Source: an uncultured Lachnospiraceae bacterium
GTDB taxonomy: Bacteria > Bacillota > Clostridia > Lachnospirales > Lachnospiraceae
Direction: 5' to 3'
Length of the DNA stretch: 37,413 nucleotides
Assembly (NCBI GenBank): GCA_946544235.1
Contig: CAMNMC010000073.1
Location: forward strand, 1 to 37,413
Position 1 is the stretch's first letter. Every line of letters starts with the position of its first letter. Shown piece by piece: positions 5,363-32,477 of the stretch. The position numbers and the translations under genes are program-made. Below the pieces are notes generated by a model. The model did not search any database. It was not told the origin of the DNA and saw only the letters and a program-made list of their open reading frames with translations.

Positions 5363-8300
5363 TTATACAAAATCCTCAGGAATAAGAAGGTGCTTATCTG
5401 GTGTACCATCAGCCTTCTCTCTGTTATCGCATCTTGCGATAGCATCATCAACAGCCTTCATAAGACGATCGATATTTCCAACTTCCATTGCAAGGAGGAT
5501 ATTGCTCAGCTTGCTCTCAAGATTCTCAGCAATCCTGTAACCGCGCTGTACACAGTATCCTTTACCGATACCGATCATATCGTCATTATCGATCATGTTC
5601 AGCTGGATGAGGTTGGTGAATTCATCCTCAACATCCTCAGCAGCTCTGAAGAGCCTTGTTACGGAATCAATCTCGCCTGTAAGGATAATAACGAAATCAT
5701 CCTTATCATCCTTGGAAAGCTTGATAACCTCCTTCAGTCTGTCGATATTTACAAGGCCGGCATTCTCTACTACCATACATCCGCCCTTAAGCTTATCCAT
5801 GGCTCCCTCGAGTTTAGCCTTGTCAAGCTTGTTAAGAGCCTGAGCCTTGATCTTGGCAATACTCTTGGAATTAACGATACCCATATCATAGAAGCTTCGA
5901 GCAAAGTCCTCACCTACACCGGTTGAACCAAAGCCCTGTCTTCCGAGGATAACGATATTTCTGTCTGATGGATTGTCGGCAACTTCATTAAATGCATCAA
6001 TAATCTGCTGTCCGATTTCTGTTGCGGTATACTTTTCGAGGTAGTAAGCACCAAGCGGAAGTCCGCTTGCTCCTACAACTCTTGTAAGATCAGCTACTGA
6101 ATTTTCAGCTTCCTCAGCCTTCTTCTTAGCCTCAGCCTCAGCTGCCTTAGCCTCATCAAGAGCCTTCATAGCCTCTGCAGCCTTCTTCTTGAGTTCTGCA
6201 GACTTAGCCTTATTCTCAGCCTCTGCCTTTACCTTACTGTCTTCATAAGCCTTTCTCTTAGCTTCAAGATCAGCCTTAACCTTCTCAGCTTCCTTAGCCT
6301 TTGCAGCAGCTGCATCTTCAGCCTTCTTTATTGCATCAAGAGCAACCTTCTTCTTAGCTTCCGCAGCCACCTTCTTCTTGAGTTCTTCAGCTTCCTTAGC
6401 TTTTGCAGCAGCTTCTTCCTTTGCCTTGGCATCAGCCTCAGCCTTAGCCTTTGCATCAGCAGCAGCCTTCTTCTTAGCATCGATCGCTGCTTTTCTCTTT
6501 GCAGAATTATCAGAACGCTTCTTAGCTTCAGCTTCATTCTGCTTCTTAACAGCTTCCAGCTTCTTCTCTGCTTCAGCTATTTCTTTATTTGCAGCATCCT
6601 CTGCAGCCTTTGAATCAGCTACAGTCTTATTTGCCTCATCAATCTTCTTCTTGGTTTCTGCTACCTTCTTCTCAGCTTCGGCAATCTTCTTCTTAGCTGA
6701 CTCTATTTCATCGTTTGCAGCCTTGATCTCAGCATTTGCTGCTTCGATCTCTTTGTTGGCTGCTTCGATATTCTTATCAGCCTCAGCCTTGATCTTAGCT
6801 GTTTCCTCAGCCTTAGCCTTTGCAGCTTCCTTAACAGCAGTTACTGCCTTCTCTTCTTCAGCAAGCTTAGCTTTGTCTTCTTCTACATTCTTAAGGTCTT
6901 CAGCCTTAGCCTTAACCTCTTCATCATCAATAGCCTTAAGATCAGCTTCGTATTTTGCGTTGATCTCTTCAAGGACTTTACTATGCTCATCGTCCTTAGC
7001 CTTTGTAGCAGCTTCTGCTTCAAGCTTGATCTTCTCAGCTTCTTCTGCTTCCTTCTTAGCTTCTTCTTCAGCTCTTGCCTTAGCATCAGTAACGATCTTG
7101 GCAAGTTCAGCAGCTTCAGCAGCAAGCTTCACATCACGCTCTTCAAGCTTCTTTATCTCTTCTTCATCCTTCTGAGAAGCGAATGCGGAATTCTTCTTTA
7201 ATTCTTCCTCAGCCTTACGTGATTCTTCGATTATGCGGCTTGCCTCTTCAGCTTTCTTACGTGCTTCCTCTGCTTCCTTATCAGCAGCTTCTCTTGCACG
7301 CTTGATAGCCTTTTCTGCAGCCTTCTTTCTGGCAGCATCTGCAGCCTTCTTACGCTCAGCTTCAAGAGCCTTACGCTTAGCCTCATCCTCTGCTTTTTTC
7401 TTCTTCTTGGCTTCTTCTGCAGCCTTTTTCTTCTCCTCAGCAGCCTTTTCAAGTGCCTCACGTTCCTTACGTTCAGCTTCTTCTCTTGCTGCCTCCTCAG
7501 CCTTTCTGGCTTCTTCTTCAGCCTTTCTCTTGGCAGCTGCCTTCTGTCTTGCCGCCTCAATACGCTGTCTTTCAGCCTCAGCTCTTTCTATTCCGGATGT
7601 AGCCTTCTTCTTAGCCGCATCCTTCGCCTTCTGATCAGCCTTAGCTTCAGAAGCCTTTACATCATCTACATCAACAATATTTTCGCCTTCAGATTCAAGG
7701 TCGGACTTGTTATCATATGCAGCCTCGAAATTGCTTCCCTTAAGCTGATCATCGAACTGAGTATCCTCATCGTCGATGTCATACATAGCATTTACATCGC
7801 CGGTCGGAGTAGTTCTGTTCTCAGGAAGAATACTGTCAAGCTCGTCACGGCCGCTGCCCTTCTTGTCACCACTCTTAGCATCTGCCGACTGCCATCCTGA
7901 ATCGCTTCCTTTGATGGTTCTGGTTCCGTCAGCCGAGAATGCACGATCCTTCTCGTCCTCAATAATCTTAACCTTGCCCTTCTCATCCTTTGATTTTTCA
8001 GGTGTAAGGTCTACACCAAGGCCGCCTCCGCCGATCGATCCGAGACCACCGAGGCCACTTGTTGATTCAGTACTTCCGAGACCTCCGAGGCCACCGCCAA
8101 GACCACCAAGTCCGCCGAGACCTCCGAGTCCGCCGCCAAGTCCGCCAAGACCTGATCCTTCTTCGGCTTTCTTTTCAGCCATTTTAGCCTTAGCTGCCTC
8201 TGCAGCTTTTTCTTCAGCTGATTTTTCTTCAGCAGCTTTTTCTTCTTCAACCTTTTTGGTTTCTTCAACAGGTTCCGGTTCAGCCGGTGCATTCATCCTG

Positions 8301-8554
8301 TCAAGCTCTTCAAGGGTAATACCCATAGCTTCAGCACGTTTTCTACGCTTTTTCTCTTCGATACGTGCCAGGTCTTCTGCTGAAAGAGTTTTGAACTTCT
8401 GCTTCTGGGTATCTTCAGTCTTCTTAGCTGCTCCACCCTTAGCGAACATCATAGCTTCCTGCTCTTTTTTGAGCTTGGCCGCTTTCTCCGCTCTCTCCTT
8501 TTCAACCTGTTCCCTGATTGCCTGTATCAGGGCTTCTCTCTGATCAATTGCCAC
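5363..8554 (-). CDS. Giant Gly-rich/coiled-coil protein with degenerate AAA+-like C-terminal domain
   Basis: A 1063-residue protein I cannot assign to a named family. Order of parts: charged N-terminus (1-133); Gly-Leu repeat built from GGLGG units (about 134-178); acidic, probably disordered segment (180-300); a very long Ala/Lys/Glu coiled coil (about 310-835); then a globular C-terminal domain (about 840-1063). The last domain resembles CbxX/CfxQ-type AAA+ modules. There is a P-loop-like ILGRQGFGST (near 870) in which the expected Lys is Ser. A Walker-B-like GGCMVVENAG (near 924) has Glu-Asn in place of Asp-Glu, and FVIILTG follows. It is therefore probably not an active ATPase. The start is GTG at 8554, nine bases after a perfect AAAGGAGG. 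No signal peptide or membrane segment is seen, so it is cytosolic. It is the third gene of a cluster, 35 bp after the acidic protein. Function unknown; a scaffold role is only a guess. Confidence 0.85.
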   Translation of the reverse strand: MAIDQREALIQAIREQVEKERAEKAAKLKKEQEAMMFAKGGAAKKTEDTQKQKFKTLSAEDLARIEEKKRRKRAEAMGITLEELDRMNAPAEPEPVEETKKVEEEKAAEEKSAEEKAAEAAKAKMAEKKAEEGSGLGGLGGGLGGLGGLGGLGGGLGGLGSTESTSGLGGLGSIGGGGLGVDLTPEKSKDEKGKVKIIEDEKDRAFSADGTRTIKGSDSGWQSADAKSGDKKGSGRDELDSILPENRTTPTGDVNAMYDIDDEDTQFDDQLKGSNFEAAYDNKSDLESEGENIVDVDDVKASEAKADQKAKDAAKKKATSGIERAEAERQRIEAARQKAAAKRKAEEEARKAEEAAREEAERKEREALEKAAEEKKKAAEEAKKKKKAEDEAKRKALEAERKKAADAARKKAAEKAIKRAREAADKEAEEARKKAEEASRIIEESRKAEEELKKNSAFASQKDEEEIKKLEERDVKLAAEAAELAKIVTDAKARAEEEAKKEAEEAEKIKLEAEAATKAKDDEHSKVLEEINAKYEADLKAIDDEEVKAKAEDLKNVEEDKAKLAEEEKAVTAVKEAAKAKAEETAKIKAEADKNIEAANKEIEAANAEIKAANDEIESAKKKIAEAEKKVAETKKKIDEANKTVADSKAAEDAANKEIAEAEKKLEAVKKQNEAEAKKRSDNSAKRKAAIDAKKKAAADAKAKAEADAKAKEEAAAKAKEAEELKKKVAAEAKKKVALDAIKKAEDAAAAKAKEAEKVKADLEAKRKAYEDSKVKAEAENKAKSAELKKKAAEAMKALDEAKAAEAEAKKKAEEAENSVADLTRVVGASGLPLGAYYLEKYTATEIGQQIIDAFNEVADNPSDRNIVILGRQGFGSTGVGEDFARSFYDMGIVNSKSIAKIKAQALNKLDKAKLEGAMDKLKGGCMVVENAGLVNIDRLKEVIKLSKDDKDDFVIILTGEIDSVTRLFRAAEDVEDEFTNLIQLNMIDNDDMIGIGKGYCVQRGYRIAENLESKLSNILLAMEVGNIDRLMKAVDDAIARCDNREKADGTPDKHLLIPEDFV

Positions 8555-8589: not shown

Positions 8590-10956
8590 TCAAATGTCTA
8601 TTCCAAGTGATTTAAGAAGTTCCTCTGCCTGTCTCTGCAGTTCAGCTTCCTTCCTCAATCTTTCGTCAAGTTCACTTTCCTTTTTCTTGACATCATCAAT
8701 CTCGTTCTTCACCTCTGATTTTTCTCTCTCAGGGAAGAGTGATGATGTAAATTTAGGATAAGATTCCTCAACTGTTTCTGCGACTGTTTCTGTAACTTTT
8801 TCCTCAGTAACCGCTTCGACTGTCTCTGCTACAGGTGTTTCAACAGTAACCGCTTCAACTGTCTCTGCTACAGGTGTTTCAACAGTAACCTCTTCAACCA
8901 CCTGCTCAGAAACCGTTTCAACCGTCTCTGCTTCAACTGTTTCTTCAGCTGCACTTACTGTTATATTCTCTACAGCTTCATCAGTCGTTACTGATGTGCT
9001 ATCTTCAGCAGTTATTTCATCCTGACTGATGATATCTTCGTTGACAACTTCCTGAACGATCTCTTCAGGTGCTTTATCTGATTCTTCAACAACAGTCTCC
9101 GAAACTATTGGCTCTGAAACTGTCTCGACCTTCTCAGGTATTATCTCAGTTTCTTCAGCAACAACCTCCGAAACTATTGGCTCTGAAGCCGTTTCGACCT
9201 TTTCAGATATCGTCTCAACTTCGTCCTCTATGTCGATTATCTCCGGTTCAGGTTCATAATCTGATGTAGATTCATCAACATTATTGATCTCAAGTTCGAT
9301 TCTCAGATCATCAAAGCTCTTGCCTGTTGTTTCAATCTCCGAATTCTTCTTTTCCTCTTCATCCTTTTTGTATGCACTTATGCTGTCAAAAGGATTTGAG
9401 AAATCAAGCGGAGTATCATCAAGTTCAGCTATCGTATCTGACTCAGGTGCGAAGCCATCATCAAAATCATATGAAATCAGGTCATCAATACTTGTGTCAG
9501 GTTTTAATTCCCTCATGTTATCCTCTGTTTCTATTTTTGTTTCCTGTGATGCCTGCTCAGCTTTTTCTGCATCAGTCACGGCATCTTCTAAAATGATCTC
9601 ATCATCTTCAGAGTTTTCTTCCTCTGTTTTTTCTGCCACAACCTGATCAGTCTTTTCAGATTCGTCCTTTCTGCCGGATTCCTCTGTTTTTTCAGGTTCA
9701 GGCGTCTTCACCGTATCCTCAGTCTTCACTGAATCCTCAGTTTTTTCAGGCTCTGCAACGCTTGCCGATTCATCATTTTTCCTATTGTCGTCAGAATCTT
9801 GAGCCGAATCCTTCTGTTCAGACTGAGCCTTGTCACCGATTTTCTCCGGTTCTTCTTTCTTTTCGGCTTCCGGAGACTCGCCCATCTTTTCAGAATTCTC
9901 AGGCTCATCTTTCTTTTCAGACTTCTCGGTGTTATCATCCGAATCAGTCTTCTCAGCCGATTCTTCGGTAGTTTCTTCCTCATCTTTATCGGCTTCTTCA
10001 CGTCTGAATTTACGTTTGATAAAATCTTTAATACTGTGTTTTATACTCTCGCCTGCAGAAACATCCTTTGCATCAGACTGTTTATCAGAACTGTTTTCTT
10101 CGTCGACGTTTTCCTCTCCGTTTTCTTCTCCGGACTGCTTCTCCGCTTCTTTCCTTAAACTCTTAAGTAATTCCTTGCGGTTCTTCCTCTCAGCCTTTCT
10201 CTTCTGTTTATCCGTGAGTTCCTCCTGAAGATCATCCACCATAAGAAGTATCTCAGGATCCTTTGGATTTCTCGTATAATAATCCTTTTCAAGCTGTTCG
10301 GCTTCAATAGTCCTTATTTCTTCCTCGACAGGATCATCATCGACAGCTTCCTCTTTACTGAAGATGTAAAACATTTCTTCTGCTTTTTTTCTGTCAGAAA
10401 AAGCTGCTTCTATATTTTCAATTCTCTTACTGTTTTTAAATGTTGCCAGATAATCAGAAACAAGGATATCCAGTCCATCATACTTACCGAGTATCATTGA
10501 TAGAAGTATAAGCTCATAGCTCCACTCCTCATCCATATTGTCTCTGTAATAAGGATACAGGGTATCATACATTTCATCGGTAACTTCACCCTCGGCTTTT
10601 TTCATGATATATTCAATATCCGCTTTCTTCCTCTGTGAAGCCTTTTCTATAAAAATGAAATGCTCGTAATATTTCCGTGCCAGTTCCTTAAAACCACGCT
10701 TCAAATACAAAATAATAAGCGACTGGATCACTTTACTGTTGCCCTCAGCCATAATGTGTGCTCTCACATACTGCTTCCTGGCATCTATGTATCTTCCGAC
10801 ATTTTCATAAACCTCTCCGCAGGTACGTACGAACTGCGGATTAAGGGATTTTTCAAGATCCTGAGCATCAAGAATATCAACTGCAACACTATAGTCTCGG
10901 GACTCAGCCAGCTCTTTTATCTTATTGACACTGGCCATACTTAATCCTGATCCCAT
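8590..10956 (-). CDS. Helical-repeat N-terminus plus highly acidic low-complexity protein, unknown function
   Basis: A 788-residue protein of no recognised family. Residues 1-210 form paired helices reminiscent of TPR repeats (for example FVRTCGEVYENVGRYIDARK). A basic segment (KQKRKAERKNRKELLKSLRK) follows, then about 450 residues very rich in Glu, Asp, Ser, Thr and Lys with internal repeats. The end is a short coiled coil (ELDERLRKEAELQRQAEELL). There is no signal peptide or membrane span. The start ATG at 10956 has GAGGTGG five bases upstream; an internal ATG seven codons later is less well placed. It lies 19 bp after the YbjQ-domain gene and 35 bp before the giant coiled-coil gene, so the three are probably co-transcribed. 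A protein-interaction or scaffold role is inferred from composition only. Confidence 0.85.
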   Translation of the reverse strand: MGSGLSMASVNKIKELAESRDYSVAVDILDAQDLEKSLNPQFVRTCGEVYENVGRYIDARKQYVRAHIMAEGNSKVIQSLIILYLKRGFKELARKYYEHFIFIEKASQRKKADIEYIMKKAEGEVTDEMYDTLYPYYRDNMDEEWSYELILLSMILGKYDGLDILVSDYLATFKNSKRIENIEAAFSDRKKAEEMFYIFSKEEAVDDDPVEEEIRTIEAEQLEKDYYTRNPKDPEILLMVDDLQEELTDKQKRKAERKNRKELLKSLRKEAEKQSGEENGEENVDEENSSDKQSDAKDVSAGESIKHSIKDFIKRKFRREEADKDEEETTEESAEKTDSDDNTEKSEKKDEPENSEKMGESPEAEKKEEPEKIGDKAQSEQKDSAQDSDDNRKNDESASVAEPEKTEDSVKTEDTVKTPEPEKTEESGRKDESEKTDQVVAEKTEEENSEDDEIILEDAVTDAEKAEQASQETKIETEDNMRELKPDTSIDDLISYDFDDGFAPESDTIAELDDTPLDFSNPFDSISAYKKDEEEKKNSEIETTGKSFDDLRIELEINNVDESTSDYEPEPEIIDIEDEVETISEKVETASEPIVSEVVAEETEIIPEKVETVSEPIVSETVVEESDKAPEEIVQEVVNEDIISQDEITAEDSTSVTTDEAVENITVSAAEETVEAETVETVSEQVVEEVTVETPVAETVEAVTVETPVAETVEAVTEEKVTETVAETVEESYPKFTSSLFPEREKSEVKNEIDDVKKKESELDERLRKEAELQRQAEELLKSLGIDI
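8812..8889 (-). repeat. Tandem 39-bp repeat in the acidic gene (2 copies)
   Basis: Two adjacent 39-bp units, 8812-8850 and 8851-8889, differ at one base and encode a 13-residue unit (EAVTVETPVAETV). This implies recent in-frame duplication within the low-complexity region. Confidence 0.85.
9067..9204 (-). repeat. Two 23-residue repeats in the acidic gene
   Basis: Two adjacent 69-bp units encode related 23-residue segments, each opening EKVET-x-SEPIVSE and ending in a proline. The units are more diverged than the 39-bp pair, suggesting an older duplication. Confidence 0.7.
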
Positions 10957-10975: not shown

Positions 10976-12061
10976 TTAGTCATCTTCAAATACTTTTTCA
11001 ACTTTTTCGATTACGCTGTCCTTCATGTTGCCGCGGGTCTTCTCATACTGCTGGCCTGACTCCATAATCTCAAGAAGCTGTAATCTGTATTTATTATCGA
11101 TGTCTTTGATGTAGCCCATAAGTACGTCCTTGATCTCATTGACATACTCTTTCTCTCTCATCTCATCGATCATCTTTTCATAATCAAACTTGGTATTGAC
11201 CTTCATATCCTCCTGCTTACGTCCGCAGACAACGCATTCCTCGTTTCCTGCCTCATTAACATGACCGCAATTACAGGTCCAGATCATACCATCTGTACGA
11301 TATTTCTCAACAGCATCAATACCACGCTTAGCTTTAAGAGCTTCAAGTCTTCTCGTAGACATAGATACATTGATTGGATTGTCATTGCATGCAAAAATGC
11401 CTCTCGGAGTAACATATTTGCTGACAACAACCTTTGCATCCTTGAGAAGCTTTATATCATTTACCGATAATTTACATGAAACATAATCTGATTTGATAAG
11501 GGAAACATTGCCCTTGTCGATAATGAAATCAACACCCTTGATAACAAGCTTCTCGTCATAGAGATTGGTGAGCTCGATATCACCTCTGATGGCATTGATA
11601 TCATCAAGATTGTAATTATAGAACCATACAGAAAGACTTACTTCGTCCCTGCTGCCTTCGACAACAACCTTAACAGGTCTCGGAACAAGTCTGGTATAGT
11701 AATTGGTAACAAAGAGTTCTTTATGAACATCCGGAATAATGCTTTCCTTCTTCTTTATTTTAACAGCAGTTCCTGTCATAACAACTGCGAACGATCCTGA
11801 AGCAAGCTGTGCATATCTCATTTCAACGCCTATAATAGCATTGGCCTTCTTAGCCTTTGCAGCCTTCATGAGATTCTTCTTAACTTCTTCATCACAGTCA
11901 TTAAGGTCGTCAAGATCCTGATCCTCAGAACCCTGAATATCTGCTGCGATTCCTTTGATAAATTTGGACTGGTAAACAGCCTGACCAACTACGAATCCAA
12001 GATACTCCTGAATCTCGTAATCTTCAAACTCATCACCAGTCGTCAGTAATAAATCTGCCAT
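10976..12061 (-). CDS. YbjQ-domain protein with C-terminal zinc ribbon
   Basis: A 361-residue protein. Residues 1-105 match the YbjQ/UPF0145 (putative heavy-metal-binding) family: YEIQEYLGFVVGQAVY, then AKAKKANAIIGVEMRY and SGSFAVVMTGTAVKI. The middle (about 120-250) looks beta-rich and is unassigned. A zinc-ribbon-like motif follows (WTCNCGHVNEAGNEECVVC, near residue 265), then a charged helical tail. The start is ATG at 12061 with GGGAGG just upstream; the frame is open to 12118, but that extension has no ribosome site. It is first of the three-gene cluster and has its own predicted promoter. YbjQ proteins have no firmly established biochemical role, so function stays open. Cytosolic. Confidence 0.85.
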   Translation of the reverse strand: MADLLLTTGDEFEDYEIQEYLGFVVGQAVYQSKFIKGIAADIQGSEDQDLDDLNDCDEEVKKNLMKAAKAKKANAIIGVEMRYAQLASGSFAVVMTGTAVKIKKKESIIPDVHKELFVTNYYTRLVPRPVKVVVEGSRDEVSLSVWFYNYNLDDINAIRGDIELTNLYDEKLVIKGVDFIIDKGNVSLIKSDYVSCKLSVNDIKLLKDAKVVVSKYVTPRGIFACNDNPINVSMSTRRLEALKAKRGIDAVEKYRTDGMIWTCNCGHVNEAGNEECVVCGRKQEDMKVNTKFDYEKMIDEMREKEYVNEIKDVLMGYIKDIDNKYRLQLLEIMESGQQYEKTRGNMKDSVIEKVEKVFEDD

Positions 12062-12123
12062 TTCAAACCTCCCAGTTTTTCGCCCCCACAGGCGAAAGAA
12101 TTTTATAAAATACACCATATTTT

Positions 12124-13749: not shown

Positions 13750-14097
13750 ATGGAACAGCTTTTATTCTGGGGAGAAATATTAAAACAGGCAAGAAAAATG
13801 CGCAATCTGACGCAGAAGGAGGTCGCCGATATACTTCATATTTCAAGGCAGTCCTACAGCAGCTACGAAACCGGACGCACCCGTCCGACACCCGAGCTAA
13901 TAGCCATACTTTCAAATATTTACGACCTCAATCTGTTTGATCACGCAATAAAATATATGCCTGCGGACTATCTGGCCGAACAGCACGAATTTAAAGCATC
14001 AATACCGTCCTCGCCGGAAGTATCCGCAGGCAGAAAGACCAATATCAGGAGAAAACCCGAACAGATATACCCTGATAATATTGAATTTGATAAATAA
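13750..14097 (+). CDS. XRE-family DNA-binding regulator
   Basis: A 115-residue protein with an N-terminal helix-turn-helix of the Cro/CI (HTH_3) type: LKQARKMRNLTQKEVADIL then SRQSYSSYETGRTRPTPELI (residues 10-50). The C-terminal half is short, charged and unassigned; no peptidase or sensor domain is seen. The start has GGGAGG eight bases upstream. It is divergent from thyA and convergent with the pseudo-phosphorelay gene, whose stop is 21 bp away. Targets cannot be inferred; autoregulation and control of the divergent thyA-folA are possible only by position. Confidence 0.88.
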   Translation: MEQLLFWGEILKQARKMRNLTQKEVADILHISRQSYSSYETGRTRPTPELIAILSNIYDLNLFDHAIKYMPADYLAEQHEFKASIPSSPEVSAGRKTNIRRKPEQIYPDNIEFDK

Positions 14098-14118: not shown

Positions 14119-16164
14119 CTAGATCAGGTTCTGCATAAGCTTCTTGGTTTCAAGCTTAACCACCTGGAAGTTCTTATTGTCTATGTCTCGAAGAAGCTCA
14201 AACAGTATATTTCTTACATCAGGACTGAGGTCATACTCTGATGCAGAATCTATGATTTCCTTAGCCTCTGAAGAGATATTTCCGGCATCGATGGCAAGAA
14301 GCGCTCTGTTAAGCATTGCCTTAAGATCTCTGTTGGAAAGCTTGATACCGTTTGATTTAAGAGGCATGCCCTTGATATCTCCGAATTCTTCGAATCCAAG
14401 CCATACTCTGAATGCCTTAACGGTTGCAAACCATTTCTGTACCAGAGTCGGCCAGTTGCTTGCCGCAACCTCAAGAGAGTCTTCTTTGGCGATATTAACA
14501 TGGTCATCAAGCATATCTGCCAGATAAAGAGCTCCGAGGCCCGAAGCCTGATCTCTGAGATCTCTCGCCATGTTCATATAGCCTCTTTCATCAGTTCCGT
14601 CAAGGAAAGCCATAAGCTTATCCGACTTCTCATCATATTCCTTACAGAACTCAAGAGCCGCTCTTCTGTAGAGCTTCAGATTTCCGCCGAACTTCTTCAT
14701 GCCGGCTGTAAATGAGATACCGCTCTTCTGCAGCTTTTCTTCCTGACGAGCCATGGCAACAGCCTCTCTGAGAAGATCCTTATCATCCGGAAGATCAGCT
14801 TTCTCCGCATTCTCGATAAGGAATTTAATGAATGTATATTTTCCGAAAGGCTTTCTGATAATACCCGCGAAACCGCTCTGGAGCAGGAATTCATCACTCT
14901 CATCGTGATCTTCATTTATTACTGCATACATTCTGGCACCGTAGCACCTGTTCATGGTAAGGTTTTCAAGATTATGAAGCGTCTGGAGGCCATCCATTCT
15001 CGGCATATATCTCGGAATAAGAATAACTGCATATTCGCTTACCTTAACCCTGTCAAGGCACTTGATGCCATTATCAACGAAATCAACAGTAACGCCGGCT
15101 ATATCAGCATATTCCTTAAGAAGATTCTTATCAGCCATATCATCTGTTACAGCAAGGATAGCGAACGGCTTTTTAAGCCTGAATTCATCTCTTCTGATAA
15201 CTCCTTCGGCAGTAACGTCAACATAGTTTTCTGTCTTGCCCTTCTTAAATACATTTTCCTTAATCGTATCTTTAACGCTTGTAAATACAGCTTTTGCCGA
15301 GTGTTCCTTCTTCGCATCAGGACCCTCTCCCGGCGGTGTAACAAGCCCCGTCGTTGCTTCACCTATAAGCTCGCTTGTTTTTGTCGAAGCATCGATATCC
15401 GACCAACCATTGGCATCAGGACTTGATGAAAGCATCATGTCTTCTCTGCTGAAAGCGTCAAGGCCGTTATTTCCGAACAGGTCACTTTCCACACCGTCAA
15501 AATTGAATTCCTTCTGCGCATAACTGATAAGGTTTCCTGTTTCTGTCGCCGGAATTCCGACCGTATTACGTGTTGTGTCGGCACGAGCAGCTGCTGCTGC
15601 CTCTCTTCTTGCAACCTCAGCCCAGTACTCAGAGGAATTCTCCGCCTGGTAGTTCTGCTGAAGCTGTTCTGCCGAAGCCGGTTTAGGTTCAGCATCACGT
15701 ACAACATATCCATATTTTTCAAACATCTGCTGATTATATGACTTGTATCCGGTATTTTCGGTCTGAGCTGCCTGACTTTGCTGAGACGTCTGTGCCGATG
15801 ATGCGCATGCTGAAGTATTTCCTGCCGAAGTATATGTATTCTGTGCATAGCCTCCGTTTGAAGCAGTGCCGGCAGCAGTCGTTGATGATGTATTTCCGGC
15901 ATATGTCTTTCCGGTTCCGGAAGCAGCCGAACTGTTTACCGCACCTGCAGCCGAAGCTGTCTGGGCTGCCGATGCAGCATTCTGCACCGTGCCGTTTGAT
16001 GAAGTATCCTCATCTCTTCTCTTCGCACCTGTTCTTGTACTGGCGTATACAGGCACCTCATTTACGTCGTAAACCGCATGAGTAACATTTGCGGAACTGA
16101 ATTTACTCTTCCATACAAAAGCTCCGATAACGAGCAGGACAAATACAACGATTATTACTGTCAT
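14119..16164 (-). CDS. Membrane-anchored protein with pseudo-receiver and pseudo-Hpt domains
   Basis: A 681-residue protein. An N-terminal membrane helix (TVIIVVFVLLVIGAFVW) leads into about 190 residues of Ser/Thr/Ala/Gln-rich low complexity. A receiver-like domain (about 325-445) follows: the phospho-acceptor site reads ILIPRYMPRMDG, where the active Asp is Pro. The later Thr/Ser is replaced (AVINED), while the RKPF lysine is kept. Next is an Hpt-like helical domain (about 490-575), FGGNLKLYRRA then ARDLRDQASGLGA, where the phospho-His is Arg. A second helical segment ends the protein. Neither domain should carry phosphate. The start is taken at ATG 16164, preceded by GGGGTG; in-frame alternatives extend to a GTG at 16215. 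It follows tyrS on the same strand. A cytoplasmic scaffold or protein-interaction role is inference. Confidence 0.82.
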   Translation of the reverse strand: MTVIIVVFVLLVIGAFVWKSKFSSANVTHAVYDVNEVPVYASTRTGAKRRDEDTSSNGTVQNAASAAQTASAAGAVNSSAASGTGKTYAGNTSSTTAAGTASNGGYAQNTYTSAGNTSACASSAQTSQQSQAAQTENTGYKSYNQQMFEKYGYVVRDAEPKPASAEQLQQNYQAENSSEYWAEVARREAAAAARADTTRNTVGIPATETGNLISYAQKEFNFDGVESDLFGNNGLDAFSREDMMLSSSPDANGWSDIDASTKTSELIGEATTGLVTPPGEGPDAKKEHSAKAVFTSVKDTIKENVFKKGKTENYVDVTAEGVIRRDEFRLKKPFAILAVTDDMADKNLLKEYADIAGVTVDFVDNGIKCLDRVKVSEYAVILIPRYMPRMDGLQTLHNLENLTMNRCYGARMYAVINEDHDESDEFLLQSGFAGIIRKPFGKYTFIKFLIENAEKADLPDDKDLLREAVAMARQEEKLQKSGISFTAGMKKFGGNLKLYRRAALEFCKEYDEKSDKLMAFLDGTDERGYMNMARDLRDQASGLGALYLADMLDDHVNIAKEDSLEVAASNWPTLVQKWFATVKAFRVWLGFEEFGDIKGMPLKSNGIKLSNRDLKAMLNRALLAIDAGNISSEAKEIIDSASEYDLSPDVRNILFELLRDIDNKNFQVVKLETKKLMQNLI

Positions 16165-16279: not shown

Positions 16280-17497
16280 TTAAAGAATGATCTTCTTAAA
16301 ACTCTTCTTTCCTCTTCTTACGATAAAGTCATTATCAAATGCATCTTTTGTATAAGCAGTGTATACATCGGTAACCTTTTCATCATTAACGACTACACCA
16401 CCCTGCTCGATCGCACGTCTTCCTTCACTTCTTGACTTAACAAGTCCTGATCTTACAAGAATACCTATAAGATCCGCTTTGCCATCCTTGAAGTCTTCCT
16501 CTTCAAGTTGAGCAGTAGGCATATTTTCTGTTGAACCTGCTGAGAAAATACCCTTTGCAGCACTCTCAGCCTTTGCAGCCTCTTCATCACCATGAACAAG
16601 CTTTGTAAGCTCAAATGCAAGGATCTCCTTAGCTTTGTTAAGCTCTGCGCCCTCCCAGCTTTCCATAGCCTGGATCTCTTCGATAGGGAGGAATGTGAGC
16701 ATCTTGAGACACTTGATAACGTCCTTATCATCAACATTTCTCCAGTACTGGTAGAAGTCATAAGGTGATGTCTTCGCAGGATCAAGCCATACAGCGCCCT
16801 TTGCTGTCTTACCCATCTTCTTTCCTTCAGAGTTAAGGAGAAGGGTTATGGTCATGGCATGTGCATCCTTACCCAGTTTCTTTCTTATAAGCTCTGTACC
16901 GCCGAGCATATTTGACCACTGGTCATCACCTCCGAACTCAAGGTTACAGCCATACTTCTCATAAAGCATGAGGAAGTCATAGCTCTGCATAAGCATGTAG
17001 TTGAACTCAAGGAAGTTAAGACCTCTCTCAAGTCTCTGCTTGTAGCACTCTGCAGCAAGCATCTTGTTAACACTGAACTGCGAACCGATATCACGGATGA
17101 ACTCGATGTAGTTCAGATCCATGAGCCAGTCTGCGTTATTTACCATAAGAGCCTTACCCTCAGAGAAATCGATAAAACGGCTCATCTGCTTCTTGAAGCA
17201 TTCGCAGTTATGCTCGATAGTCTCCCTGGTCATGAGAAGTCTCATATCGGTTCTTCCTGTCGGATCGCCGATCATACCGGTTCCTCCGCCCACAAGAGCG
17301 ATTGGCTTATTACCATTCTGCTGAAGTCTCTTCATAAGACAGAGTGCCATGAAATGACCTACATGAAGGCTGTCTGCTGTCGGGTCAAATCCTATATAAA
17401 ATGTAGCTTTTCCTGCATTTATAAGCTTTTTGATTTCTTCTTCATTAGTTACCTGAGCTATGAGTCCGCGGGCAACCAGTTCGTCATATAATTCCAT
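16280..17497 (-). CDS. tyrS: Tyrosyl-tRNA synthetase
   Basis: Charges tRNA-Tyr with tyrosine in the cytosol. At 405 residues it matches the family length. The class I signature is HVGHF (near residue 45) and the KMSKS equivalent is KKMGKT (near 230). The tyrosine and tRNA pocket region [12 protein letters not shown] is present, and the C-terminal S4-like RNA-binding domain is seen as [29 protein letters not shown]. The start has GGAGG about ten bases upstream. It has its own promoter at 17540-17568. No T-box specifier or antiterminator sequence was found in its 220-bp upstream region. Confidence 0.97.
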
Positions 17498-17717: not shown

Positions 17718-18356
17718 TCAAAGCAACTGTTCTCCGAGCAAATCAAAGGAATTGACGTTCTCGTACAGTTCCTCGTTCATCGCATCATAGTATCCGACAT
17801 TATCAAGGTGTTCGGCAATATGCCTCAGTCTGTAATCGCCGGCCGTTATCTGAGCCGTTATAGCTCCGAGTGCATGTACCGAATAGATTCCGGCAAGCGG
17901 CTGCATACCTCTCTCCTTTGTCCTTGCAAACAGGACATCCTCGCCCTTATAAGCCGCGAGTATTCTTCCGATCTCATTACAGTCATATTTAATCATATCA
18001 CAGGCAATGAACAGAACCGCAGAAGCATTGTCCTTCTCAGCCCTTTTAAGAACCGATGCGATGCCGCCTATAGGTCCGATACCATCATAAATATCCTCCA
18101 CAGATTCATAGCCGCTGCGGCTGATCTTCTGCCCCTTTCGGACGGAAATATATTTTATACCATTGTTTTCACGGAAGGCAGTATCAATCTCATCACATAT
18201 TTTATCCAGAAACGTTCTTCCGTCACCGGGAATAACTACCGTTTCCTTCGGTCTGCCCATTCTCTTTGATTGACCGCCTGCCATAACAGCGACAGCGATA
18301 TTCAAACCGCCAGCATTCATATCACCATTGTTCTTATCGTAAATACTGCCACACAT
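17718..18356 (-). CDS. mobA: Molybdenum cofactor guanylyltransferase (MobA)
   Basis: Adds GMP to Mo-molybdopterin, giving the guanine dinucleotide form that formate dehydrogenases of the DMSO-reductase family need. It has 212 residues (family about 195). The nucleotide-binding loop AVMAGGQSKRMGRPKE is near residue 22. VLFIACDMIKYDC carries the metal-binding Asp, and the block MQPLAGIYS matches the family. The start ATG at 18356 follows GGAG by nine bases; an internal ATG (MNAGGLNIAV) is possible. It is the last gene of the Mo cluster, 90 bp after the MobB-MoaC fusion. There is no adjacent gene beyond it on this strand for about 220 bp. Confidence 0.9.
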   Translation of the reverse strand: MCGSIYDKNNGDMNAGGLNIAVAVMAGGQSKRMGRPKETVVIPGDGRTFLDKICDEIDTAFRENNGIKYISVRKGQKISRSGYESVEDIYDGIGPIGGIASVLKRAEKDNASAVLFIACDMIKYDCNEIGRILAAYKGEDVLFARTKERGMQPLAGIYSVHALGAITAQITAGDYRLRHIAEHLDNVGYYDAMNEELYENVNSFDLLGEQLL

Positions 18357-18446
18357 ATCCTTTTACTCCGGAAACGTAAATAAACTATAATCATTCCTAT
18401 TATCAGCAATTCAGATATTTATCATATAAATACCATATTTTTCAAA

Positions 18447-19529
18447 CTAAACATCAGCATGGTACTCTCCATGAATCCCGCCGGTTTTATGAAGCAAATG
18501 TATATCGGTAATCCGCATATCACGCTGTATGCTCTTGCACATATCTATGACAGTAAGCGCCGCCGTACTGCAGGCACACAGAGCTTCCATCTCTACTCCG
18601 GTCCGCCCGTTGCACGAAACAGTTGCCTCAATATCCACACTGACCTTCTCCTCATTAAGTTTCAGCTTAACATCCGCCGAATCAATTATCACCGGGTGGC
18701 ACATCGGTATCAGATCCGGTGTTCTCTTGGCTCCCATGATCCCTGCAATCTGAGCAACCGTCAGAACATCACCCTTCTTAACACCGCCGCTTCTGATCAG
18801 TTCAAGTGTCTCTCTGTTTATCAAAACACTTGCAGCCGCCGTAGCAGTCCTTCTTGTTATATTCTTAGCGCCCACGTCAACCATGCGCGCATTTCCTTCA
18901 TCATCAAAATGTGAAAAATCCTTTTCTGACATATCACCTTTCACCCAATCACTGCTTATCGTTATTGACAGATCATCCGCCACATCTACTGACCGCCCAC
19001 TCCCTGCAGAATTACAATCCGGTCCATCAACCGCTTGCATATTCTTAGCAATCATAAGTCTTAATATGTACTCCACTATTCCATCAACATCATCAATAGA
19101 AAATACAGGTTTGTCATACCCACTGAAAAGATCAACATCATCAGTCAGTACCGCCAATGCTTTATCCATGTCATCCGGTTCACGATATTCATTTCCTTTA
19201 GTCATCACATATAGTCTTGGAATATCCTCGCTCTTAAAGCCTTCAACAAGAACTATATCCATACCTGATGAACCCTGCAGCATCTCACTCAGGCTTTTGG
19301 GCTTTTTACCTGTCTCGGCATACCCGGACATTTCGGATGAAATAAGCACCCTGTCAGCTCCCGCTTCTGCGAAACGATACGTATCCTTACCCTCATGATC
19401 CATCTGAAAGCCGTGAATATCATGTTTTATTACCATCACAGAGAGACCTCTTCTCTTAAGAACAGGTATCAGTTTTTCTATAAGCGTTGTCTTGCCTCCA
19501 CCCGAATATCCGGCTATACCTATAATCAT
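18447..19529 (-). CDS. MobB-MoaC fusion (Moco guanylylation adaptor + cyclic pyranopterin phosphate synthase)
   Basis: A 360-residue two-domain protein. Residues 1-165 are MobB: P-loop GIAGYSGGGKTT, VIKHDIHGF, and VLVEGFKSE. After a linker (about 165-205), residues 206-360 are MoaC: NITRRTATAAA, PMCHPVIIDSADV, GVEMEALCACSTAALTVIDM and the C-terminal KTGG. MoaC makes cyclic pyranopterin phosphate with MoaA; MobB helps the final GMP-adding step, so the fusion joins the first and last stages of the pathway. The start ATG at 19529 follows AAGGGTG; the frame is open to 19580 without a ribosome site. Both domains keep their key residues and no frameshift is seen. Confidence 0.9.
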   Translation of the reverse strand: MIIGIAGYSGGGKTTLIEKLIPVLKRRGLSVMVIKHDIHGFQMDHEGKDTYRFAEAGADRVLISSEMSGYAETGKKPKSLSEMLQGSSGMDIVLVEGFKSEDIPRLYVMTKGNEYREPDDMDKALAVLTDDVDLFSGYDKPVFSIDDVDGIVEYILRLMIAKNMQAVDGPDCNSAGSGRSVDVADDLSITISSDWVKGDMSEKDFSHFDDEGNARMVDVGAKNITRRTATAAASVLINRETLELIRSGGVKKGDVLTVAQIAGIMGAKRTPDLIPMCHPVIIDSADVKLKLNEEKVSVDIEATVSCNGRTGVEMEALCACSTAALTVIDMCKSIQRDMRITDIHLLHKTGGIHGEYHADV

Positions 19530-19661
19530 GTAGTTCACCCTTCGTCCTTCCGAAAATACCGTATAACAAACACAGTTCAAGCATATCTATTATTATTTCA
19601 ATAATATCTAAAACCAATTCACATGCTGTAACAAGCTGTCAATGCACATTTTTCTCTATGA

Positions 19662-20678
19662 TCAATATCTTCCGAATGTACAGTTCGGATAATGGCATGG
19701 ACTGCATTTCTGGCAGAGTCCGCCATCACCCAGATCGATCAGTTCCTTTTTTGTAAATCTCTCCCCTGCAAAAATCTGCGGAAGCATTACATCAAGCATG
19801 GTTGTCGGAAGCGAGATCGCCGCTCCTGGAACTCCCAGTATCGGCACATCTCCGAGATAGGCAACCAGAGTCATATTTCCCGGCTGTGCCGGCACACCAT
19901 GACTTACTATATCCGCCCCAAGTTCCTTTATAGCCCCCGGAGTAAGATCATCCGGATCTACCGACATACCACCGGTGAAAATAAGGAAGTCTGCACCTTT
20001 GTCGAGCAGTTCACGAGCCGCATCAACAATCATTTCTTTGTCATCATCACATATTTTTATATCCACTATCTCCGACGGATAGTAATCAAGCTTCTTTCTT
20101 ATGACCGGTTCAAACTTATCGCTGATCCTGCCATTATAAACCTCAGAACCCGTTATGATAATACCAACCCTTTTGTTATTATATGGCAATATCCTGATCA
20201 GTTCCCTGTCTCTGCAAAGCTCTTCAGCCTTCTTTATCTGCTCCTCTTCAGTATAAAGAGGCACTATCCTCATGGATGCAACCGCTGCCCCCTTTTCCAG
20301 TCTGTAATGATCAGGAAGCGTCGCAACAGTTATATCACCGATTCCATTTATTTCTATCAGAAGCCCGGTATCAACCCTGAGCATTCCCTTCACATCGGAA
20401 ATAAGTAAAACCTTCCCTTCAGAGGGACCTGTGTAATGTGAACCCGGAACCTGAACCATTTTGGAAAGCCTGATAGCGCAGTCCTCTTCATGAAGAAGCC
20501 CTTCTTCAGCCTCTCCGACATACACAGTTTTCTTGCCAATATCAAGCAGAGCAGATATATCCTTCTCCTCTATGATATGACCTCTTTTAAAAAGAGCCCC
20601 CTTGAAGCCGTCATACATAGCTGTTACGTCATGTGCCAGAGCCTGTCCGATTGCCTCTTCTACATCTATCTTTTTCAT
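19662..20678 (-). CDS. MoeA-like molybdopterin-binding protein with Cys-rich tail
   Basis: A 338-residue protein. The centre carries the MoCF-biosynthesis fold: GIIITGSEVYNGRI, LIFTGGMSVDPDDLTPGAI and GVPGAAISLPTTMLDVMLPQI. The N-terminal part aligns only loosely with the MoeA linker domains. The C-terminus ends in a cluster, CQKCSPCHYPNC, that could bind a metal or Fe-S centre and is not part of normal MoeA. It is 171 bp downstream of the true moeA, with which it is not interchangeable by sequence. The start is ATG 20678 (MKKIDVEEAIGQ) with AAGG upstream; the open frame runs to 20795. It probably helps Mo insertion or handling for formate dehydrogenase; that is inference. Confidence 0.85.
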   Translation of the reverse strand: MKKIDVEEAIGQALAHDVTAMYDGFKGALFKRGHIIEEKDISALLDIGKKTVYVGEAEEGLLHEEDCAIRLSKMVQVPGSHYTGPSEGKVLLISDVKGMLRVDTGLLIEINGIGDITVATLPDHYRLEKGAAVASMRIVPLYTEEEQIKKAEELCRDRELIRILPYNNKRVGIIITGSEVYNGRISDKFEPVIRKKLDYYPSEIVDIKICDDDKEMIVDAARELLDKGADFLIFTGGMSVDPDDLTPGAIKELGADIVSHGVPAQPGNMTLVAYLGDVPILGVPGAAISLPTTMLDVMLPQIFAGERFTKKELIDLGDGGLCQKCSPCHYPNCTFGRY

Positions 20679-20849
20679 ACATTCTACCTTTTCATTCTTC
20701 TTAATGCTCAAACATGCTTTCCAAAATCCACCGCCGGTCATACACGTGAATTCGAGTAAACTCACAAAAATGTCGTTTGATAAATTCGTTTTCATAATGA
20801 CATTCTGTTCAGATTACTATCATTTTTCTCACTGGCGAAGCAATACAAT

Positions 20850-22133
20850 TCAGCTGAGGAACCCCTTGATCATCTGCCCTTCCGAAATTTCTCCGGATTT
20901 TGGCGGAATGATTCCATAAGCATCACAGCCAACGGCACTGCTTATAACAACATTCCCCTGAGATGAACTATATTCAAGCCGGACTTCACCTGCCTCAAAA
21001 ATAAGCTTTCCTCTGAGAAATCGTGTGTTTCCGCTTTTATTTACGAATCCTTCCGTAAGCTTCATGTCGATCATCTGATGATCATATTCTGTATAACCCG
21101 CCATTTTCCTGAGCGCCGGCATGCAGATACACTGAAGATTTGTCAGACTTGACGCAGGATTTCCGGAAAGCGCAAGCATAAGCTTTCCGTCCTTCAGTCC
21201 ATAGGCCGATGCCATCCCGGGCTTAATGATCACTCCATCACAGAGGATTTCCAGACCTGCCTTCTTCATCGCAGAGATCACAAGATCATAATCGCCTGCA
21301 GATACTCCGCCGGTTGATATCAGAACATCACACTCCCGAAGTCCTTTTTCAATCACACCGACAATACTCTCCTCATCATCATTAACATGTCCGAGATACT
21401 TAGTCTCGATATTATATGTTTCCAGAGCCGCACTGATTGAATACCTGTTTGAATTGCGGATCTGTCCTTTTTTCAGTTCTTCGTCAGGCTCTGCAACCTC
21501 ATCACCCGTTGAGATAATTCCCGCGCACAGACGCTTGTAAACAGGAACAGTCAAAATTCCGAGAGAAGCCATAGCACCCGCAAGCCCCGCATCTACTACC
21601 GTACCCGCTTTGGCAATAATCTGCCCCTTTTTCATATCCTCTCCGGCATAGATCACATTTTCTCCGGATTTATATTTCTTTTTTAAAATAACCTCTGTTT
21701 CGGTAAAATCAGTATCCTCATATTTGCAGATGGCATCAGCACCATCCGGAAGGCATGCACCGGTCATAAGGCGTACCGCAGTTCCCGGTACTACCTTCTT
21801 CTCAGGAAGCTGTCCTGCACGTATATTTTCAATAACATGAAGTACCACTCCAGAGTTTCGGACTGATCCGTTCGATTCATCTTCTGTCGGTTTCTCCTGC
21901 TTAACAGCCGATGCATCATGTCCTCCAATAGCACCATTCAACAGAGCTGTATCTTCCGACCGAAATGCATAGCCGTCGTATGGTGATCTGTCAAAGGACG
22001 GAACATTCTCTGCGGCAACTATATCCTCCGCAAGTACTCTTCCATAACTGTTCTCCAGATCAACCATCTCAGCAGTTGTAACATTTATACTATCTATCAG
22101 TTTGTTCTTTGCTTCCTCGAACGTTAATCGCAT
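20850..22133 (-). CDS. moeA: Molybdopterin molybdenumtransferase
   Basis: Ligates molybdate to adenylated molybdopterin, releasing AMP. It has 427 residues (E. coli MoeA 411). Blocks seen: SFDRSPYDGYAFRSEDT (N-terminal linker), MTGACLPDGADAICKYED, IISTGDEVAEPDEELKKGQ, STGGVSAGDYD, and ALSGNPASSLTNLQ. A modest insert after the first block (about residues 65-90) is charged and variable. The start has GAGAGG upstream. The gene follows modB by 97 bp and is followed by the MoeA-like gene. Confidence 0.94.
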   Translation of the reverse strand: MRLTFEEAKNKLIDSINVTTAEMVDLENSYGRVLAEDIVAAENVPSFDRSPYDGYAFRSEDTALLNGAIGGHDASAVKQEKPTEDESNGSVRNSGVVLHVIENIRAGQLPEKKVVPGTAVRLMTGACLPDGADAICKYEDTDFTETEVILKKKYKSGENVIYAGEDMKKGQIIAKAGTVVDAGLAGAMASLGILTVPVYKRLCAGIISTGDEVAEPDEELKKGQIRNSNRYSISAALETYNIETKYLGHVNDDEESIVGVIEKGLRECDVLISTGGVSAGDYDLVISAMKKAGLEILCDGVIIKPGMASAYGLKDGKLMLALSGNPASSLTNLQCICMPALRKMAGYTEYDHQMIDMKLTEGFVNKSGNTRFLRGKLIFEAGEVRLEYSSSQGNVVISSAVGCDAYGIIPPKSGEISEGQMIKGFLS

Positions 22134-22230
22134 TTTTTATATATTCCTCTCAAACCAGTCTCAGTGCAGTATTATACACTGTTTATTTTCTGATTGCTCC
22201 ATCCATACTGTCTCTTAGGTCACATTTATT

Positions 22231-22902
22231 TCACTCATATTTTGCAGTCCTGCTCTTATCTTCTATCATGTTGATTGCTATAAGAACAACCGCCGAAATC
22301 GCAACATTTATCAGCACCCATTTGGTTGCCAGATCATCCTTGCCGGTTCGCCACAGCTGATAAACCGTAGTCGAGATCGTAGCTGTCCTGCCGGGAATAT
22401 AGCCGGCAATCATCGAAGTCGCACCATACTCCCCGAGTGCCCTCGCAAAAGCAAGAACACAGCCTGCTATTATCCCCTGCTTACAGCATGGCATTTTCAC
22501 CCTGAAGAATATATAGGATCTGCTGAGTCCCAGCGACTTACCTGCCCACTCAAGATTTTTATCAAAAGCTTCAAATGCCCCTCTGGCAGTTCTGTACATA
22601 AGTGGAAATATAACCACCGAGGTGGCAAAGATAGCCGACCACCAGTTCATGGTCAGTTTTACACCAAACACCGAAAGGAACATTTTTCCTATCACACGTT
22701 TCGGACCGAGAACCCTGAGCAGCAGATAGCCGATAACAGTCGGCGGAAGCACCAGCGGCAGTGTAAAGATACAGTCAAACACACCCTTAGCCCACTTCGG
22801 AAAACGGGTCACCAGATTTGCTGCCGCGATACCGATAATAAATATGATAATTGTACTTATTCCCGCGATCCGCAGGGAGTTCCACAGAGGATAATAATCC
22901 AT
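22231..22902 (-). CDS. modB: Molybdate ABC transporter permease
   Basis: Inner-membrane subunit of the molybdate importer, 223 residues (family about 225). Five or so hydrophobic segments are visible, starting with LRIAGISTIIIFIIGIAAA. The cytoplasmic EAA loop that contacts ModC reads EWAGKSLGLSRSYIFFRVKM, followed by ARALGEYGAT, a signature of ModB. The start (MDYYPLWNSLR) has only a weak AAGG upstream. It lies 84 bp after modA. The gene order here is modC-modA-modB. Confidence 0.94.
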   Translation of the reverse strand: MDYYPLWNSLRIAGISTIIIFIIGIAAANLVTRFPKWAKGVFDCIFTLPLVLPPTVIGYLLLRVLGPKRVIGKMFLSVFGVKLTMNWWSAIFATSVVIFPLMYRTARGAFEAFDKNLEWAGKSLGLSRSYIFFRVKMPCCKQGIIAGCVLAFARALGEYGATSMIAGYIPGRTATISTTVYQLWRTGKDDLATKWVLINVAISAVVLIAINMIEDKSRTAKYE

Positions 22903-22986
22903 ATATCTTAACCTTACAGTTTCTTTAATAAAATCTTATATTCAACCAACCAGTATTCATGCACCTTATTCATTTTGCAATCTGTT

Positions 22987-23838
22987 TTACCGGATGCAGG
23001 TAAACCCGATTCCTTCAAATACAGCCTTACTCTCAGCACTCTTGAGATATTCAAGAAAAGCCTTAGCAGCATCCTTATTCTTCGAATTCTTAGTTACAGC
23101 CGCCGGATAAATAACCTGGCCGCACATATCCTTGGTTGCCTCGTCAACAAACTTAAGTCCTGCAGATGATGCATCCGTAGAATAAATAACACCGCAGTCA
23201 ACCGCGCCTTCACTGATCTGAGATGTAACCTCTTTAACATTGCTTCCGTAAGAAATAACGCCGTCAGAAGCAAGTTTTGTCTCATCAAGCCCATAATATG
23301 CTAATATCTTCTGTGTATACTGACCAACAGGAACATCCTCGTTACCCATAGCCATCAGAATATCCTTTGCCTGAAGGTGAGCAACCAGATCATCAAAGCT
23401 GTTTATATTCTTCTTATTATCATCCGGTACAGCAAGAACAACCTTATTTTCAAGAAGGTCTGTTCTTGTGTCGGAGTCGATCAGATCGTTTCCGTCCGGA
23501 TTCTTTTCAGCATCTGCATTCTTGTCGAGAGCATCCATCTGCTTCTTAGCCGCAGAAATGAAAAGATCACAGTCCGCTCCCTCTTCGATCTGAGTCTTAA
23601 GTGTTCCGGATGAATCGAAGTTAAATACGATCTTCACATTCGGATGATCCTTCTTATAATTCTCTGCAATCTGTTCAAGCGACTCCGTAAGAGATGCCGC
23701 AGCATAAACAACAATCTCAACTTCCTTTTCAGCGTTCTTATCCTTCTTGTCCTTCTTACCGCAGCCAACTGTCGCAAAAACGATCATAAGTGCCAGTGCC
23801 AGCGCAAAACCCTTTTTTAAAATACTTTTTCTCTTCAT
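22987..23838 (-). CDS. modA: Molybdate-binding lipoprotein
   Basis: Substrate-binding protein of the molybdate importer, 283 residues. It has a lipoprotein signal with a basic start (MKRKSILKKG), a hydrophobic core and a lipobox ending FATVGC, so Cys26 would be lipidated and the protein tethered outside the membrane. A Lys-rich linker follows. Binding-fold blocks are VYAAASLTESLEQIAENY, NFDSSGTLKTQIEEGADCD and DCGVIYSTDA, typical of ModA. The start has GGAG upstream. It is separated from modC by about 200 bp holding three 41-bp tandem repeats. Confidence 0.94.
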   Translation of the reverse strand: MKRKSILKKGFALALALMIVFATVGCGKKDKKDKNAEKEVEIVVYAAASLTESLEQIAENYKKDHPNVKIVFNFDSSGTLKTQIEEGADCDLFISAAKKQMDALDKNADAEKNPDGNDLIDSDTRTDLLENKVVLAVPDDNKKNINSFDDLVAHLQAKDILMAMGNEDVPVGQYTQKILAYYGLDETKLASDGVISYGSNVKEVTSQISEGAVDCGVIYSTDASSAGLKFVDEATKDMCGQVIYPAAVTKNSKNKDAAKAFLEYLKSAESKAVFEGIGFTCIR

Positions 23839-23890
23839 TTGTTAATCTCCTTTTTATAATAACAGCCATCTCTTCAACCTGCTGCATAAT

Positions 23891-24013
23891 GCATCCGATT
23901 GATTATCTCACCGTTTCATACATTACTGATGGCATCCATATGATTGCCTCGCTGTTTCATACATTGCTGATAGCATCCATACGATTGTCATACTGATTTA
24001 TTCATCTTTGATG
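23891..24013. repeat. Three imperfect 41-bp tandem repeats between modC and modA
   Basis: Units start at 23891, 23932 and 23973, an exact 41-bp period. Each begins GCATCC and contains a GATT followed by a T-rich CAT block and ends CTGAT or TTGAT. The first two units are the most alike (TTTCATACATT-x-CTGAT is shared). The period is not a multiple of three and no gene covers it, so it is non-coding. Role unknown: possible protein-binding array or slippage product. Confidence 0.75.
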
Positions 24014-24040
24014 ACAGCAATTATTTTCATACATCTCATA

Positions 24041-25177: not shown

Positions 25178-25310
25178 TTTTTTACTCCATTATCTATCCT
25201 GATCACACAAACAAAAGATATACATCAATCTGTTTCTGCTTATCCATCATTTCATCAAATAACACGATTCACTCAATATTTTTCATAATCATCCAATTCA
25301 AAATATGTCG

Positions 25311-26276: not shown

Positions 26277-26444
26277 CTTTTATATTTCCTTCACATCTAT
26301 TCTTCCAATCTCAAGCAATCTGACAAAAATACATTATCAATCCTGAACAACATTATCCATCCAACATCATGTGGCACCATGACAGAATAATCTCCAGATT
26401 ATCTGTCTTATCTCCACGACCAAATAGTTTCAATCTACATCCCA

Positions 26445-32443: not shown

Positions 32444-32477
32444 AGTTTTTCCCTCCAAATATAATTAGTCCCTGCAA

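Follow-up and report, generated by a model that had tools for sequence, protein, structure and literature searches.

The window analysed here, a stretch of 37,413 nt, corresponds to positions 1 to 37,413 of contig CAMNMC010000073.1 from an uncultured Lachnospiraceae bacterium (GCA_946544235.1), a 2.87-Mb draft genome that is 82% complete. On its reverse strand, positions 14119..16164 encode a protein of 681 aa from an ATG start. Initiation at an alternative GTG (16215) would lengthen the protein by 17 residues; the ATG is backed by orthologues, since the same Met is found in three of the five closest. Residue numbers used here end at 698, and the N-terminal helix starts at residue 18, at the ATG end of the gene (16164). 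From its N-terminus onwards the protein is predicted to consist of a membrane helix, a long tether, folds of the receiver (REC) and Hpt types, and a C-terminal helical domain. An earlier, sequence-only reading of this DNA had recognised the dead receiver, the dead Hpt and the single N-terminal helix, and had overlooked the C-terminal helical domain. A Pfam scan of the protein detected neither HisKA nor HATPase, so that by domain content it is not a histidine kinase, and found no DNA-binding, enzyme or kinase domain.

The gene lies directly downstream of tyrS (16280..17497, reverse strand), a conserved neighbour, with a gap of about 64 nt to the GTG or 115 nt to the ATG. Forty-one loci were examined, and in all 38 in which both genes were recognised tyrS was directly upstream on the same strand; L045, L046 and L054, where ORF picking did not call tyrS, were left out of the 38. 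The intervening gap ranged from -8 to 136 nt, as measured from mechanically picked starts. The same arrangement was present in 3/3 loci from other genera, and the two genes are probably co-transcribed. Ahead of tyrS, the other-genus loci carry a homologue of an O-antigen-ligase-type gene, which in the window (Wzy_C) is located further from tyrS, beyond a molybdenum cofactor and molybdate transport cluster (17718-27449, reverse strand). This cluster includes MobB-MoaC and MOSC-MoCF fusions and is adjoined by a molybdopterin oxidoreductase pair; parts of it also occur beside tyrS in L065 and L066.

The other flank holds a small convergent HTH_3 gene (13750-14097, forward strand; Pfam), thyA, folA, a YbjQ-domain gene, an acidic protein, a coiled-coil protein and mreB. 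An HTH_3 gene near the focal gene accounted for 34 ORFs of the compared stretches. The YbjQ-domain protein (10976-12118, reverse strand), conserved next to folA, continues into what by eye is a Cys4 zinc-ribbon-like stretch. The acidic protein (8590-10956, reverse strand; 788 aa) has a repeat-like helical N-terminus, by eye, followed by a long acidic low-complexity part; it has no Pfam match, and its gene belongs to the same conserved block as the focal gene. The coiled-coil protein (5363-8554, reverse strand; 1063 aa) is rich in Ala, Glu and Lys, also lacks a Pfam match, and ends in a region that by eye is AAA-like, with a P-loop-like GRQGFGSTG that has no Lys. An STAS and HATPase_c_2 pair of the anti-sigma/anti-anti-sigma type (Pfam) was found at 32141-32888 on the reverse strand. 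No histidine kinase was detected among the 26 neighbouring proteins scanned, in agreement with the earlier statement that none is adjacent.

The pseudo-receiver spans residues 351-470 (14806..15165, reverse strand) and was delimited by Pfam, alignment and structure prediction. Its match to PF00072 (36.3 bits) exceeds the curated cut-off of 30.2, a (beta-alpha)5 REC fold was predicted with high confidence, and the 50 Foldseek matches listed were all receiver-bearing chains. By alignment, the phospho-Asp position is occupied by P401 (15013-15015, reverse strand), the switch position is N434, and the pocket lysine, K455, is retained, as the sequence-only reading had proposed. A REC domain without the phospho-Asp is what has been defined as a pseudo-receiver (relevant passages of PMC12632262), and the window copy belongs to this class. 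Among 51 homologues from the same genus the position was Ala in 32, Pro in 6, Ser in 6, Thr in 3, Gly in 3 and Phe in 1, and in those from three other genera it was Ala, Ala and Ser; Asp was therefore found in 0/51 and 0/3, leaving none of the 54 with the residue of a phosphorylatable receiver. Pro itself, whose conservation the earlier note had asked about, is private to a six-member clade that includes the window copy. The switch position was variable among the 51, and the pocket position was Lys in 38, Met in 9, Arg in 3 and Val in 1. Sixteen of the 51 have Asp or Glu two residues past the lost Asp, where the window copy has Tyr, and unusual phosphorylation at that residue may, judging from sequence, occur in those 16.

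The pseudo-Hpt follows at residues 500-606 (14398..14718, reverse strand), as defined by alignment and structure prediction. A four-helix bundle was predicted with high confidence and a match to Hpts was obtained via VIA-align, so that both the bundle and the homology expected of an Hpt fold were found. The Pfam Hpt family was not: PF01627 gave no match to the protein up to E 10, and at E 0.1 was listed for none of 47 members of an alignment selected by the peptide pattern DDHVN, in which PF00072 was matched at E 0.1 or better by 47/47. Of 53 matches to this pattern 46 were confirmed as family loci. The motif is present in that alignment by construction; because of this bias, the counts quoted here were taken from the 51 homologues not selected for DDHVN.

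At the phospho-His position the protein has R551 (14563-14565, reverse strand; by alignment), as the sequence-only reading had stated. Arg occupies this position in 54/54 homologues (51 from the same genus and three from other genera), and His in 0/54, which leaves no member with the residue needed for a phosphorylatable Hpt. The third residue past it, Lys in the live Hpt motif, was Arg (R554) in 51/51, a mild change, and the next was Glu in 37 and Asp in 14. Over residues 351-698, 18 columns were invariant across the 51 rows, six of them being R551, R554, D570, D571, V573 and N574; H572 was conserved in 50/51, the exception, L084, having Asn (DDNVN). In place of the phospho-His patch there is thus a polar cluster of R551, R554, D570, D571, H572 and N574 across two successive Hpt helices, with an RxxR[DE] motif on helix C and DDHVN on helix D.

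The C-terminal helical domain (residues 620-698; 14122..14358, reverse strand) was delimited by profile alignment and structure prediction; predicted by itself it had a mean pLDDT of 76.8, and it is absent from L062, L063, L064 and L084. The family profile aligns this domain to the tails of long frames of the hybrid-kinase type, and a profile of the Hpt and C-terminal domains together matched other-genus proteins across both, mostly in long frames resembling hybrid kinases. Fifty-one non-family stretches were aligned to the Hpt-half profile, mostly long kinase-type frames and some short ones. All 48 that cover the Hpt site have His there, and in those whose receivers were aligned as well, the receivers retain Asp. 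In one further genome (L136, G293) an Hpt-like His stretch (AHTLR) follows what by eye are membrane-like segments, in a frame without a receiver match; it is possibly a separate Hpt type. In a tree of the 54 members and 11 kinase-type tails, the tails did not form a single clade, so the midpoint served as root. A long branch leads to the family; support was low, 0.58 at the node of the 54 members and near zero at several deep nodes, so the kinship claim rests on the profile matches and the site difference.

The membrane helix (residues 18-36; 16108..16164, reverse strand) was identified by hydropathy and composition, which bears out the single N-terminal anchor described earlier. The positive-inside rule is the usual basis for orienting such helices, and the K-S-K immediately after this one leads to the expectation of an N-out/C-in topology, which would place the REC/Hpt part in the cytoplasm. 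A membrane helix is present in 11/54 homologues, located in several separate tree branches that include all three outgroup genera. This pattern was read as an ancestral helix lost more than once, on a tree whose deep nodes are weakly supported. Re-attachment of the soluble homologues through an amphipathic helix was considered and set aside, as their N-terminal hydrophobic moments were not above those of shuffles (mean z 0.13, 43 homologues).

Past the helix, an alignment of six orthologues distinguishes three segments. A juxtamembrane segment (residues 37-66; 16018..16107, reverse strand) carries the motif HAVYDVNE, of which HAVYDV is identical in 6/6. Residues 67-160 (15736..16017, reverse strand) are variable and of low complexity (10-54% identity); A, S, T, G, N and Q are abundant across residues 60-250. 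Residues 161-245 (15481..15735, reverse strand) form a block of 85 residues with 75-95% identity, exceeding each of six other segments in 15/15 pairs (L015-L020). The 190-residue flexible linker proposed from sequence thus contains a conserved block that had gone unrecognised. Synonymous differences in the block are high (pS 0.57-0.86), and in combination with its high identity this indicates that selection acts on the protein. The block had no Pfam match and was found in 6/99 genomes searched, always inside a homologue of the focal protein; a seventh match (G003, E 0.03) looks like chance. Since the block is confined to the six-member clade and the helix to 11/54 homologues, neither is essential to the family's basic function.

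Homologues were present in 51/61 genomes of the genus, the window's own included, and in 3/198 genomes from other genera of the family (G138, G168 and G227), within a family survey of 200 genomes of which two belong to the genus. Members were separated from non-members by a gap in score, the weakest member having 111.7 bits and the next match 62.5. Thirty-eight genomes from the same order yielded nothing comparably strong (best E 3e-13), and a further 392 genomes, judged by score, added no members. The relatives recovered through the DDHVN pattern are labelled, for example, Eubacterium ruminantium, Eubacterium sp. or Lachnospiraceae bacterium, and many are metagenome bins from the ruminant gut. 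The ten genomes of the genus without the gene had weak profile matches, mostly in long frames. Three of them (G018, G042 and G048; L271, L269 and L268) keep the Olig-tyrS-thyA-folA block intact apart from the focal gene and are useful natural knock-outs. The HTH_3 gene was called in two of these three loci and is visible in the third. The TPR-like/acidic gene and the YbjQ gene both persist where the focal gene has been lost, and an obligate partnership with either was not supported. In G032 a different gene follows tyrS, in G010 and G046 tyrS extends to a contig edge, and in G038, G039, G050 and G060 neither the focal gene nor tyrS was found. These data were read as a narrow family with occasional loss, apparently inherited vertically.

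The REC-Hpt part is under strong purifying selection. Among 34 pairs above 78% identity, dN/dS was 0.027-0.128 in 26, the other eight being saturated for dS. These values, together with the conservation of Arg in 54/54, rule out a decayed copy, and orthologues with an intact Asp or His, which would have pointed to decay, are missing among the 54. As judged from the residues at the two sites, phosphate cannot pass through the protein by known chemistry. Since both phospho-residues are lost and selection is nevertheless strong, the protein probably acts by binding partners, and the conserved polar cluster, the strong constraint and the lack of a recognised output domain favour a binding adaptor. 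We consider it rather likely that the protein is a phosphorylation-independent adaptor and that its REC-Hpt-helical part was once the tail of a hybrid histidine kinase. The earlier suggestion that the dead pair was retained for a structural or binding role is thereby strengthened through the predicted folds, the sites in 54 homologues and the purifying selection, with binding itself and the number of partners being what we infer. A hybrid-kinase ancestor would have lost its kinase part and had both phospho-residues replaced while the remaining surfaces were kept; in the window's lineage a single helix would anchor the protein to the membrane on its cytoplasmic side. The tether block would bind one partner and the pseudo-Hpt surface, with RxxR[DE] and DDHVN, probably a second, so that the protein might co-localise the two, or keep one inactive, without phosphate transfer. 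Several observations count against such an adaptor: the gene is dispensable in places, as in the three natural knock-outs and G032; the tether block and the helix are each confined to some of the homologues; 16 of the 51 have the Asp or Glu near the lost Asp; the change from Lys to R554 is mild; and H572 could be a substitute phospho-His, though one homologue has Asn there. More tentatively, and at somewhat less than an even chance, the pseudo-Hpt with its own invariant site (RxxR[DE] and DDHVN) and the pseudo-receiver may together be a phosphate-free adaptor for binding or ligand sensing, which in the E. ruminantium clade would operate at the membrane with a tether segment lacking any Pfam match.

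Other explanations were weighed against this one, and two of them can overlap it. The dead tail may compete with intact REC-Hpt tails for docking to kinases or response regulators. Such an inhibitor would fit the descent from hybrid-kinase tails, a source genome in which 54 receiver matches reach E 0.001 and 6 Hpt matches reach E 1, four of the latter lying above the cut-off, and the precedent of AHP6, a plant pseudo-HPt thought to act in this way (as described in passages of PMC7402358). It is nonetheless rather unlikely: one might expect the docking surface of a live Hpt to be preserved in a decoy, whereas here His became Arg, Lys became Arg and Gly/Ser became Glu/Asp, a new invariant motif arose on helix D, no histidine kinase was detected among the 26 neighbouring proteins scanned, and the conserved tether block is left unexplained. 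The Arg/Asp/His/Asn cluster, or the altered REC pocket, might instead be a putative binding site for a metal or small ligand, in which case the protein would be a sensor whose input is something other than phosphate. The near-complete invariance of the cluster would suit such a site, and some pseudo-receivers do bind ligands, ShkA with c-di-GMP being an example given in the consulted portions of PMC12632262; however, the cluster residues may be salt bridges that stabilise the bundle, and we regard this explanation as distinctly unlikely.

A role in regulating or assisting tyrosyl-tRNA synthetase is suggested by the close, same-strand adjacency to tyrS in 38/38 loci. However, tyrS persists where the focal gene is lost, and the linkage may be mere shared transcription. 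Moreover, tyrS was found in 188/200 genomes of the family, five of which have the focal family. Regions downstream of tyrS were taken from 40 of the other 183, three being too short (L228, 1179 nt; L251, 251 nt; L255, 1300 nt), and neither a version with live sites nor any family member was found in the 37 testable regions, all from other genera. The strongest hit of the profile in these regions, in L216 (E 0.008; next 0.33), is by eye an OmpR-type response regulator with its Asp intact. A role tied to the synthetase is accordingly very improbable. Least credible of all is a pseudogene, that is, a degraded hybrid kinase on its way to being lost. The absence of the gene from some genomes of the genus would agree with it, but close pairs have dN/dS of 0.03-0.13, frames are open across the genus and three other genera, the same Arg recurs in every member and the fold is predicted with high confidence. 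The phosphate-independent binding adaptor is retained as the preferred explanation.

Receivers that lack Asp form an established class, making up as much as about 4% of receivers according to passages of PMC4395418. A 2025 review (PMC12632262, in the parts consulted) gives the share lacking the site as 2.0% for receivers and 0.9% for the Hpts sampled (90 of 10,312), and states that the Hpt His cannot be bypassed for phosphotransfer. Pfam is blind to the Hpt half of the present family, and surveys based on it would therefore miss this case. In the titles, abstract openings and some passages of open-licence papers, no bacterial protein with both sites lost was described; the pseudo-HPts named there are plant proteins, and bacterial His-less Hpts appear only as a count. 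Bacterial wording to the effect that a protein lacks the conserved histidine concerned, in those passages, a kinase domain in one paper and, in the nearest passage of a second, a transmitter domain. What appears new here is the double loss in one bacterial protein; pseudo-two-component proteins as a class are known. A family with both sites lost, Arg in all 54 members and purifying selection provides a natural test of REC and Hpt folds without phosphate.

Compared with known systems, the protein resembles the aspartate-less receivers RitR, FrzS, ChxR, ShkA, CikA and the second receiver of PleD in having a REC fold without the phospho-Asp, often with the pocket Lys kept. FrzS has Ala at the phospho-site (passages of PMC4395418), as do 32/51 homologues of the focal protein, whereas Glu, the commonest replacement of Asp in the survey reported there (26%), occurs in 0/51. 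Unlike the known pseudo-receivers, the REC domain described here is joined to an equally dead Hpt, with no DNA-binding, enzyme or kinase domain by Pfam. AHP6 of Arabidopsis is a small stand-alone HPt. Its His is replaced and it works without phosphate (passages of PMC7402358), as proposed for the focal protein, but it has Asn at the His site, whereas the present family has a fixed Arg, a preceding dead REC and rebuilt residues after the His position. RcsD, like the focal protein, is a membrane-bound protein of the phosphotransfer type, but relays its signal to RcsB by phosphotransfer (passages of PMC12785465), for which the focal protein lacks the His. The order REC, Hpt and C-terminal helices is shared with hybrid kinases of Lachnospiraceae and related families which, unlike the focal family, are long frames with Asp and His intact at the aligned sites.
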